From Pseudomonadota bacterium (GTDB taxonomy: Bacteria > Pseudomonadota > Alphaproteobacteria > Rickettsiales > UBA3002), in assembly GCA_040384265.1 (NCBI GenBank), contig JAZKJM010000005.1, forward strand, positions 177,166 to 241,165: a stretch of DNA of 64,000 nt, in the 5' to 3' direction. The position numbers and the translations under genes are program-made. Below the pieces are notes generated by a model. The model ran no database searches. It saw only the letters and a list, made by a program, of their open reading frames with translations, and was not told the origin of the DNA. Each line of letters starts with the position of its first letter. The stretch's first letter is position 1. This document shows positions 45,322 through 62,952 of this stretch, piece after piece.

Positions 45322-45399
45322 TGTCACCCCGTCGCATGACGGGGTCCATCTACTTGTCCGAGATAGCAAGATGGATGCCGTCATAAAGACGGCATGACA
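45322..45399. repeat. Palindromic repeat family 2, copy a
   Basis: 78 bp bounded by TGTCACCCCGTCGCATGACG on the left and GACGGCATGACA on the right. It lies between convergent nfu and the flagellar-rod-like gene. Copies at 57872 and 62879. Confidence 0.88.
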
Positions 45400-56199: not shown

Positions 56200-56290
56200 C
56201 GTCATTGCGAGCGAAGCGCGGCAATCCAGCTTTCAGACTTGCCGGAAGAAGAAAGTAAGGCTGGATTGCCACGCTTCGCTCGCAATGACG
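56200..56290. repeat. Palindromic repeat family 1, copy d
   Basis: 91 bp ending CGCAATGACG, followed by AAAGG and 9 nt later the gcdH ATG. The end of copy a stands in the same relation to mutM. Confidence 0.9.
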
Positions 56291-56304
56291 AAAGGTGTTA
56301 CCTC

Positions 56305-57471
56305 ATGCTCAACGAACTTAACTGGCTCGACCCCCTCGCCCTTGAAGGCGAACTGACTGAGGACGAGCGCCTGGTGCGCGATGCAGCGCGCGGATTTGCG
56401 CGTGACCGTTTGTTTCCCGGTGTGATTGCGGCCAACCGGCACGAAGTTTTTGACCGCGAGATCCTGCGCGAAATGGGTGCGCAAGGGCTGCTTGGCTCCA
56501 CCATTGAGGGCTATGGCTGCGCAGGCGTGAGCCATGTCGCCTATGGCCTCGTCGCCCGCGAGGTGGAATGGGTGGATTCCGGCTACCGCTCGGCGCTGTC
56601 GGTGCAATCCTCGCTGGTCATGCACCCGATCCATGCGTTTGCAGCCGAATCGCAAAAGCAAAAATATTTACCGCGCCTTGCCAGCGGCGAGCTGATCGGC
56701 TGCTTCGGCCTCACCGAACCCGATGCGGGCTCCGACCCCGGCAGCATGAAAACCCGCGCCGTGAAGGTCGATGGCGGCTACCGCATCAACGGCTCGAAAA
56801 CATGGATCACCAACGCACCGATTGCGGATGTGTTTATCATCTGGGCAAAGCTAGATGATGCGATCCGCGGCTTCATCGTCGAGCGGGGGGATGCGGGCAG
56901 CATCGCCACCCCGAAAATCGATGGCAAAATGTCGCTGCGCGCGAGCGTCACCGGCATGGTGATGCTGGATGATGTGTTCGTGCCCGAGGAACGGCTGCTG
57001 GATGTGTCGGGCCTCAAAGGCCCGTTCAGCTGCCTTAACAAGGCGCGCTACGGCATTGCCTGGGGCGTCACCGGCGCGGCGCTGCATTGCATGGAGATCG
57101 CCCGCGACTACACGCTGCAACGCCAGCAATTCGGCAGGCCGCTCGCCGCCACCCAGCTCATCCAGAAAAAACTCGCCGACATGATGACCGAGATCGCGCT
57201 TGCCACCCACGCCGCGCTGCGCGTCGGCCGGTTGATGGATAGCGGTGATTATGCACCGGCAATGATTTCGCTCATCAAGCGCAACAGCTGCGGCAAATCG
57301 CTCGACATCGCCCGCACGGCGCGCGACATGCTCGGCGGCAACGGCATCGCGGATGAATACCATGTCATCCGCCATATGATGAACCTGGAAGCCGTGAACA
57401 CCTACGAAGGCACCCACGACATCCACGCCCTCATCCTCGGGCGCGCCATCACCGGGCTGGCGGCGTTTTAA
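56305..57471 (+). CDS. gcdH: Acyl-CoA dehydrogenase, glutaryl-CoA type
   Basis: 388 residues. FAD-binding [17 protein letters not shown] and [18 protein letters not shown], with the catalytic glutamate in [20 protein letters not shown]. The YEGT ending and [16 protein letters not shown] near residue 95 fit glutaryl-CoA dehydrogenase, which makes crotonyl-CoA in lysine/tryptophan breakdown. Its stop overlaps the hisN start by one base. Confidence 0.9.
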
Positions 57472-58310
57472 TGAACGCCGATTTCCTCCCCTTCGCCCAT
57501 AGCCTTGCCGATGCGGCGGGGGCGATTATCCGGCCGTATTTCGGCACGGCGCTTTCGGTGGATGTGAAGGCCGACCATTCCCCCGTCAGCATCGCCGACC
57601 GGGAGGCGGAAGCCGCCATCCGCGCGCTGGTTGCGGCGCGCTTCCCCGAGCACGGCATTTACGGCGAAGAATATGGCCAGCAATCCACCAGCCAGCGCTA
57701 TACTTGGGTGATCGACCCGATCGATGGCACCCGCGCCTTCCTTGCCGGGAAGAAGGAATGGGGCACGCTGATTGCCCTGTGCGAAGACGGCGTGCCGATC
57801 CTTGGCATCCTCGACCAACCCGTCACCGGCGAGCGCTGGGTGGGCATGAGGGATACTCCAAGCACATATACTGTCACCCCGTCGCATGACGGGGTCCACC
57901 TTGAAGCATTCGAGAAAAAAGATGGACCCCGGCATAAAGCCGGGGTGACACATCTGTGCCGCAGCCGCCCCTGCCCGTCGCTTGCGGATGCCGCCCTTTC
58001 CACCACCTCGAAAAACCATTTCACCCCGCCGCAGGCACGCGCCTTCATCGGCCTTGCCGAGGCCTGCGGCGAGGTGATTGCGGATGGGGATTGCTACGCT
58101 TACGGCCTGCTTGCATGCGGCTTGCGCGACCTCGTCGCCGATGCGGGGCTAAAGCCCTACGACATCCTCGCCCTCGCCCCCATCATTCAGGGCGCTGGCG
58201 GCATCATCACCGGCTGGGACGGCGCGGCGATCACCCTCACCCATTATGCAACGGCGCTAGCGGGCGGGAATGCGGCGCTGCATGCCGCGGCCCGCGGAAT
58301 GCTTGCGTAA
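57471..58310 (+). CDS. hisN: Histidinol-phosphatase HisN with in-frame repeat
   Basis: 279 residues, inositol-monophosphatase fold. Metal ligands in GEEYG and WVIDPIDGTRAF, and WDGAAITL near the C-terminus. Residues about 134-160 (TVTPSHDGVHL...GVT) are a family 2 palindromic repeat translated in frame, replacing the loop usually reading GxxTxxNG before the RPCPSLADAALSTTS segment. The frame stays open, so the product may be functional. Confidence 0.9.
   Translation: MNADFLPFAHSLADAAGAIIRPYFGTALSVDVKADHSPVSIADREAEAAIRALVAARFPEHGIYGEEYGQQSTSQRYTWVIDPIDGTRAFLAGKKEWGTLIALCEDGVPILGILDQPVTGERWVGMRDTPSTYTVTPSHDGVHLEAFEKKDGPRHKAGVTHLCRSRPCPSLADAALSTTSKNHFTPPQARAFIGLAEACGEVIADGDCYAYGLLACGLRDLVADAGLKPYDILALAPIIQGAGGIITGWDGAAITLTHYATALAGGNAALHAAARGMLA
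57872..57950. repeat. Palindromic repeat family 2, copy b, inside hisN
   Basis: 79 bp from TGTCACCCCGTCGCATGACG to CCGGGGTGACA, same ends as 45322 and 62879, entirely inside hisN with no stop. Confidence 0.92.
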
Positions 58311-58321
58311 AAACGGGGCAG

Positions 58322-59515
58322 CTACTGGCGGCCACACTCCGGCTCAGCAATGCCCGCGATAGAGCGGATGGTCGCCTTGAAACCAGATTCAAAAGCCCGA
58401 ATCGCTTCATCTGCGGAACGAGTTTTTGGGGTAGTTTTATCGTTCAACGCGCACAACAGCTCACGCGCTGCCCTTTTGGTATCAAAAGAGTCATCTATAT
58501 AACGAACTCTCTCATTCTCAGGAAAAAGTGGCTTCAAGAGATCGAATGCTAATGCTCCAGCCACGATGGTAACCCGCCCCTTTTCACCATCATTCATATT
58601 CCGGCCCTTGATGAGTTCATCCACCAGTTGGCTGAACTCTTGATCCAGCTGCGGCAATGCTTCTTTTACTTTTTGGAGCTTGGAGATCTGACGCGCACCA
58701 TAGGCGCGATACCCGCTTCCAAGAGCTGAGTCTTCACCCGGGATAACCCGCGGCAGACTTACACCGGGATGGCGGGCAACAACACCATCATGATATTTTT
58801 CATAACGTGCATCGATATATTCGCCCACGATCGTTGCAAAAACGCTCAATGACGGTGGTTTTTTCGGAGCAGCGCTTTGCGCGCTCTGTAGTGCAGGACT
58901 ATCCATATCTTTACCATACCTTTTCGTGTGATTGGCCGCATATAGCCCGCCCATAGGCACGATAGTATGACAGCTTGATGAAACTTCGCCCCCAGACACT
59001 CCCTTTATTTGCAGCGCATTCACCACGGAGTCCGCAAAGTTGCGAACCACCTGCTGCGCAAGGGCCGGGGCGATGCCAATCTGCTCCAAGTCCTTTAAAA
59101 AAGCACTGGATTTTTCGATGATTTCCGCGTTTCTGTAATCCACCAGCGTCGGATTTTCCATGCCGCCATCGCTTGTGTCATAGCGCTTTTTTTCAATCAA
59201 TGCCTCGGCATAGGCCTTCGCCACACTGTGAAAGGTGGATAGCCAGAAGAGATGCACCGCGAACTCCTGTTCGCTGTTGAAGCAATGTTTTATGCGCGTT
59301 ATCGCATAAATAATTTCATCGTTAGCGGCCTGAGCAAAGGGCTGCTCATCGATCACATAGGTTTGCGCCACGGCGTCATAAACATGCTCCCAGCTCGACT
59401 GGTTCTCTTGGATGTAATCCCCCACCAACCCCTGCTGATATTGCATTCTTTGGCGCTGCGGCTGCGGCAGCGCGGCGATCATCAGTTGGTCGATCTTTTC
59501 ATCTGTCAGCGTCAT
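58322..59515 (-). CDS. Hypothetical protein
   Basis: 397 residues, unrecognised, soluble and largely helical. Low-GC relative to trmFO and hisN. I chose the ATG at 59515; a TTG at 59572 would fall inside the promoter if the Pho-like site at 59575 is used. It converges on hisN with 11 bp between. The 5' region is shared with the divergent trmFO. Confidence 0.65.
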   Translation of the reverse strand: MTLTDEKIDQLMIAALPQPQRQRMQYQQGLVGDYIQENQSSWEHVYDAVAQTYVIDEQPFAQAANDEIIYAITRIKHCFNSEQEFAVHLFWLSTFHSVAKAYAEALIEKKRYDTSDGGMENPTLVDYRNAEIIEKSSAFLKDLEQIGIAPALAQQVVRNFADSVVNALQIKGVSGGEVSSSCHTIVPMGGLYAANHTKRYGKDMDSPALQSAQSAAPKKPPSLSVFATIVGEYIDARYEKYHDGVVARHPGVSLPRVIPGEDSALGSGYRAYGARQISKLQKVKEALPQLDQEFSQLVDELIKGRNMNDGEKGRVTIVAGALAFDLLKPLFPENERVRYIDDSFDTKRAARELLCALNDKTTPKTRSADEAIRAFESGFKATIRSIAGIAEPECGRQ

Positions 59516-62878: not shown

Positions 62879-62952
62879 TGTCACCCCGTCGCATGACGGG
62901 GTCCATCTGCGCCACCGAAGAAAGGTAGACCCCGTCATGCGACGGGGTGACA
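62879..62952. repeat. Palindromic repeat family 2, copy c
   Basis: 74 bp with long inverted arms (TGTCACCCCGTCGCATGACG and its complement) in the 330-bp gap between the TetR gene and hslO. Nothing else coding is seen in that gap. Confidence 0.92.

Follow-up and report, generated by a model that had tools for sequence, protein, structure and literature searches.

A head-to-head REP pair with CGTC-type anatomy lies in frame in hisN of a Rickettsiales bacterium

The closest described relatives of the element reported here are the CGTC REPs. In the sections of Di Nocera 2013 (PMC3733652) on which we draw, these repeats consist of a C/TGTC tag, a stem of 8-9 bp, a loop of 4-5 nt and a CCA tail, with TGTC an accepted variant of the CGTC tag. 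According to the same sections, head-to-head dimers predominate, tail-to-tail dimers are rare, no transposase is associated with the repeats, and the stems almost invariably start A-T at the first two pairs, a feature that is typical and not absolute. CGTC REPs lie mostly outside genes, some dimers or groups being found in ORFs where they code for 20-30 residues, and different REPs occupy about the same recB site in two Xanthomonas species (PMC3733652). R. conorii CGTC-1 and CGTC-4 are equated there with RPE-6 and RPE-4. RPE-4/6/7 occur at shared sites in Rickettsia, and the relevant part of PMC3767692 leaves open the choice between hot spots and common origin. RPE-1 to RPE-3, of ~100-150 bp, are described in excerpts of two papers as often located in ORFs and are said to carry a conserved peptide (PMC10969869, PMC3767692). 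Among the papers found, as judged by title and the start of the abstract, none concerns a palindromic insertion in a histidinol phosphatase.

The window analyzed here, a stretch of 64,000 nucleotides, carries a 79-bp element at 57872-57950, inside hisN and in its reading frame (Table 1). A palindromic repeat had been assigned to this position in the first-pass annotation, and its two hairpins of opposite, head-to-head orientation confirm the assignment. Against a covariance model of the repeat, to which both units contributed as members of the 28 used to build it, the left unit scores 45.9 bits and the right unit 40.3 bits (E 6.6e-12 and 4.1e-10 in a search of the window). Folded as RNA together with six flanking bases on each side, the element reaches -42.5 kcal/mol, which relative to 200 dinucleotide shuffles is a z of -6.1. 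The pattern TGTCAYNCCGNC occurs six times in the window where 0.24 occurrences are expected by chance, a count reached by 0 of 100 shuffles. The ends had been called identical to those of the sister pairs at 45322 and 62879; this holds for the left 27 nt, the same in all three copies, while the right units differ. A search of 57000-59000 against Rfam, with matches considered up to E = 1, gave none overlapping the element and two outside it, both far under their gathering scores.

Table 1. Positions of the hisN element, its host gene and related REP insertions (window coordinates unless a locus handle is given)
Feature	Position	Strand	Details
hisN, IMPase-type histidinol-phosphatase (likely name)	57471-58310	+	279 aa including the insert
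hisN codons 134-162 (29 residues)	57870-57956	+	codons 135-160 wholly within the element
Left REP unit	57872-57898	+	TGTC tag, 8-bp stem ACCCCGTC/GACGGGGT, 4-nt loop GCAT, CCA tail
Spacer between the two hisN REP units	57899-57922	.	24 nt
Right REP unit, inverted	57923-57950	-	TGTC tag, 8-bp stem ACCCCGGC/GCCGGGGT, 5-nt loop TTTAT, CCA tail
Sister REP pair	45322-45399	.	between two predicted genes
Sister REP pair	62879-62952	.	between two predicted genes
In-frame REP insertions in coaE (this genome; G004)	L007:1507-1580; L190		
In-frame REP insertion in ybeY (G004)	L339		
In-frame REP insertion in trmJ (G005)	L245		

By its anatomy the element fits the CGTC REP superfamily, as a dimer and with no transposase. 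Tag, stem length, loops of 4 and 5 nt, tail, head-to-head arrangement and the lack of a Y1_Tnp match in a PF01797 search all agree with the CGTC REPs as characterized in the sections of PMC3733652 cited above. The hisN units differ from them at the second stem pair: both stems begin A:T and then C:G, and of the 27 distinct aligned units, 15 have C:G at the second position and 12 have U:A. As far as the excerpts describe them, Rickettsia RPE-4 and RPE-6 are similar in being inserted in frame in housekeeping genes, with orthologs that carry different elements near the same site, and the ATGAC frequent in them corresponds, on the opposite strand, to the GTCAT present in part of the units here. 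They differ in that in-frame copies are rare in this genome (2 of 88 listed clusters) and in that C:G, not T:A, is the second pair in those 15 units. RPE-1 to RPE-3 share with the hisN element the in-frame palindromic insertion, but on the same partial descriptions the repeats here are unlike them in size (79 bp), in being rarely located in ORFs and in giving no sign of a kept frame. Two inverted REPs acting as one unit recall the REPINs, which have a GTAG tag and a RAYT gene in the account of PMC3733652; here the tag is TGTC and the genome gave no Y1_Tnp match. The superfamily is a known one; the host lineage and the genes (hisN, coaE, ybeY and trmJ) differ from those described.

In the 2.0-Mb genome (G000), the matches listed with the covariance model at E up to 1 comprise 146 REP units in 88 clusters: 48 plain head-to-head pairs, 34 single units and 6 others. 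Two-unit clusters among those listed number 50, with one ++ and one -- arrangement beside the 48 head-to-head pairs, and four more clusters contain three units. Stricter thresholds were applied elsewhere, namely 0.1 in a comparison with 14 other genomes and 0.01 in G004 and G005. The REP counts depend on these thresholds and on an upper limit of 150 candidates scored in each genome. Since the 28 units behind the model were picked with a hairpin-like pattern, the stem is confirmed by them and not discovered. In these units 98.9% of the stem cells are paired and 38 cells have changed on both sides, each value being reached by 0 of 500 shuffles; two of the five covariation measures do not rise above shuffles (pairs with changes on both sides, 143/500; further pair types, 294/500). 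The stem pairs vary mostly by compensation. Matches at E up to 0.1 were found in all 14 other genomes, 13 of the same family and one (G037) of another; G001 and G007 have one match each, that in G007 at E 0.09. Five pairs of 89 bp have 33-nt spacers with ends that are mostly ggcc (G000 C3:326594, C4:229218, C5:309248, C5:405988 and C6:24190), and the spacer of another pair, G000:C3:355646-355738 (L172), contains a run of N that represents an assembly gap or a masked stretch. Upstream of hisN, the first part of an acyl-CoA dehydrogenase ORF (56239-56310) includes GLPRFARND. An ORF in L086 terminates in the same residues, and the shared stretch is possibly another repeat family that overlaps a gene start.

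A search with the Y1_Tnp profile (PF01797, RAYT family) found nothing in this genome; of the 15 genomes tested, two gave a match, at G004:C138 (L290) and G010:C6 (L291). There was none in G005, which is rich in REPs and listed as 100% complete. Direct matches between the flanks of the 48 head-to-head pairs are not in excess at k = 2-9 (lowest value 39/300 shuffles, at k = 7), and a classical MITE, which was considered for its target-site duplication, was set aside on this result. Old or imprecise copies could mask such a duplication. As no target-site duplication was found in the 48 pairs, it is the copy number that argues for movement. Complementarity between the outer flanks of the REP pairs does not exceed that in shuffled pairings. 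Immediately beyond the TGTC tags of the same 48 pairs the sequence is C-rich and G-poor, with 46 C and 4 G among 96 bases at position -8, a bias that may reflect target choice or terminators.

The host gene encodes an Inositol_P protein (PF00459, E 3.9e-41). Its product scores 251.4 bits (E 8.9e-75) against TIGR02067, his_9_HisN, by far its best NCBIfam match, and this lies under the curated cut-off of 275.15 bits, so HisN is used here as a likely name and not as a filed membership. The IGPD (HisB) step is retained in the genome and histidine synthesis therefore seems to be kept; one further Inositol_P gene is present. Histidinol-phosphatases other than HisN may exist in the genome. The codon model gives the whole gene +66 nats and its 29 codons 135-163 only +1.3, as expected for foreign sequence. 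That the insert is an artefact of assembly, or the gene a decaying pseudogene, is hardly credible. Repeats are places where assemblies can fail and the genome is in nine contigs, but the frame is open over 279 codons, and the flanks on both sides of the element are coding, lie in one frame and supply both halves of a single HisN on a 606-kb contig, which makes an assembly error unlikely from the sequence itself. The GEE and DPxDGT residues, which we take to be the metal-site motifs of the Inositol_P-type family, belong to the invariant columns of an alignment of 13 sequences, and this speaks against a pseudogene.

The insert had been put at about 27 extra residues. An extra in-frame tract is indeed present, with the size corrected to 26 residues wholly encoded by the element (135-160) and a net gain of 25, because the 29 residues T134-L162 replace exactly four residues in 23 of 29 aligned relatives. 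The empty site that an alignment of HisN relatives was expected to reveal is there: 25 of the 29 have four residues or fewer at this position, among them three congeners (G002, G003 and G004) with four each. Longer loops are found in G012 (8 residues), G037 (9), G013 (17) and G001 (18). Compared with G003, about 4 nt appear to have been lost at the edges of the insertion, which makes frame and length fit. The exact edges and this net loss are approximate, since the empty sites are those of same-genus proteins 51-60% identical and not of close strains. The PDB relatives 4n81 and 5eq7 align on either side of the insert and do not contain it themselves.

An AlphaFold model of HisN, built with 13 sequences, has a mean pLDDT of 89.3, with values below 50 at residues 141-143 and 145-153, between the strands at 129-135 and 160-162. 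The model superimposes on 4n81 with Z 36.2 and 1.4 Å over 243 residues, and on a Medicago histidinol-phosphate phosphatase with Z 35.5-35.9; these Z values come from rescoring Foldseek's own matches with low-confidence stretches excluded. Most likely the insert lengthens a β-hairpin turn as a flexible tract; about half of the insert is predicted to be disordered, and the fold stays intact. Modeling thus bears out a loop extension where the first-pass annotation had proposed a new surface loop, but in the model the insert extends a turn that already joins two strands and adds no fold element of its own.

A further claim had been that the repeat is a mobile element tolerated by genes in its own right, with other in-frame copies to be counted in the genome. 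Counting gave one more, in coaE, that is the two clusters out of 88 noted above. In-frame calls rest on a codon model, for which the retrieved DNA served as training set and which replaced a listing of long ORFs; the long ORFs through other REP copies were by eye mostly antisense or leader ORFs and were discarded. In G004, 3 of 86 listed clusters were flagged as in frame, and those in coaE and ybeY stand; the third, in proS, one of six flagged overall, was dropped because the repeat sits upstream of the usual protein start. G005 has one in 83 tested clusters (trmJ), four of its 87 listed clusters being too close to contig ends. In this genome, eight further same-strand clusters with coding flanks have no open frame through the repeat and were rejected as intergenic gaps or stretches before a start, not broken genes. 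These are presumably gaps or starts at, for example, tatB/tatC, rplS/leuC, murC/murB and rpsB/tsf, names that, like EtfB, PurK, ProS, YbeY, TrmJ and CoaE, we assigned from the translations.

These counts bear on whether the repeat could be of the Rickettsia RPE-1 kind, a mobile protein-coding element suited to read-through and preferring genes. The hisN and coaE copies of this genome do share one reading frame, with the element starting at the third codon base and TVTPSHDG at the left end, but the coaE copy of G004 is read in another frame. Over the three genomes, 5 of 257 listed clusters are in frame in genes, although ~82% of the window is coding and the flank test would be passed at 2633 of 3000 points chosen at random within genes; in-frame copies are therefore far rarer than random placement would give. 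When all six frames of each element are counted, 112 of 288 are open; in mononucleotide shuffles the figure is 3230 of 7200 (45%), so the observed share is below the shuffled one. An element of the RPE-1 kind is largely refuted by the in-frame and open-frame counts, and we consider it very unlikely. Rarity in genes and frames no more open than shuffled ones argue against a gene-adapted element and for a passive sieve, in which only in-frame insertions in tolerant loops would survive. The CGTC REP anatomy likewise speaks against a gene-adapted element.

The same HisN loop is occupied in other genomes. In G013 a REP unit (18.7 bits, E 0.0074 over 162 kb with the covariance model) directly follows the same tyrosine codon, TATACT|TGTC as against TATAC|TGTC in this genome, and is followed by an apparent decayed inverted partner, seen by eye against a G013 unit where the model reports none. 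G012, of the same genus as G013, has a similar remnant, less clear and likewise seen by eye where the model reports none, and the 18-residue loop of G001 gives no REP signal with the covariance model. Such occupied or lengthened loops would be expected if the loop were old, selected in the lineage and merely similar to a repeat, yet it is absent from G002, G003 and G004 in the same genus, and the hisN copy, itself intact, shares 88-89% identity over ~80 nt with two others in the genome. We regard an old loop as extremely unlikely. G002 is the partner of this genome in the HisN tree (support 0.96; deeper nodes 0.03 and 0.85). With the site empty in G002 and also in G003, G004 and G010, a history with two separate gains is more parsimonious than a single gain plus several exact losses. 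Against this counts the disagreement of the coaE and joint trees with the HisN tree: they place G003 with the genus of G012 and G013 (0.88 and 0.62), G002 being missing from both.

In coaE, a REP pair of G004 lies in the same loop as that of this genome, in another frame, and the loop lacks a REP in the other 28 of 29 aligned relatives; the model lists the left unit of the G004 pair and the right unit was recognized by eye. The node concerned in the coaE tree (0.53) does not decide between one gain and two. The spacer of the coaE copy in this genome is that of the sister pair at 62879, 20 nt long, except for one position. The hisN and coaE cases together point to tolerated insertion hot spots. 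That certain loops are true hot spots for insertion of CGTC REP dimers is a tentative reading to which we give slightly less than an even chance: this species and a member of another genus would have gained insertions in the hisN turn independently, within ~1 nt of the same place, with the short site kept by further species around both, and the coaE loop would have been entered maybe twice in one genus. The EEFG loop of HisN in G004 (L060:1231-1317) and G013 (L047:1423-1560) contains, also in frame, a second repeat unlike the first, with 24 matches at E up to 0.01 in G004, 7 in G013 and 10 in this genome, some of only 18-20 nt. In two relatives REP pairs begin 4-6 bp past the last hisN sense codon (L053:2263-2344 and L063:2256-2325), the units in L063 being weak (E 0.015 and 0.018).

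Taken together, we think it very probable that a CGTC REP dimer, one of the 88 listed clusters, inserted in the β-hairpin turn of hisN, with the frame kept, the gene surviving and a flexible tract added to the enzyme. The steps would be as follows. A head-to-head dimer enters the turn; the length of the element and small changes at its edges would keep the frame, and as the frame used has no stop, hisN would survive. The dimer most likely moved as one unit, through what would be an activity not supplied by a Y1 (RAYT-type) transposase resident in the genome. Its insertion would leave no detectable target duplication, and rare in-frame insertions in flexible loops would be those that survive. 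HisN with the insert is presumably still active, and the flexible tract is probably neutral.

These results document translated REP insertions in an alphaproteobacterial family and provide a denominator for them, ~2% of the listed REP clusters in three genomes. The score of HisN suggests that enzymes with REP inserts may drop below curated score cut-offs. If the hot-spot reading is true, it would be favored over a single insertion followed by divergence, the choice left open for Rickettsia RPE-4/6/7 in the part of PMC3767692 cited above. Across the related genomes a single site is found filled, decayed or empty, which makes hot spots and the cost of an insert testable there.
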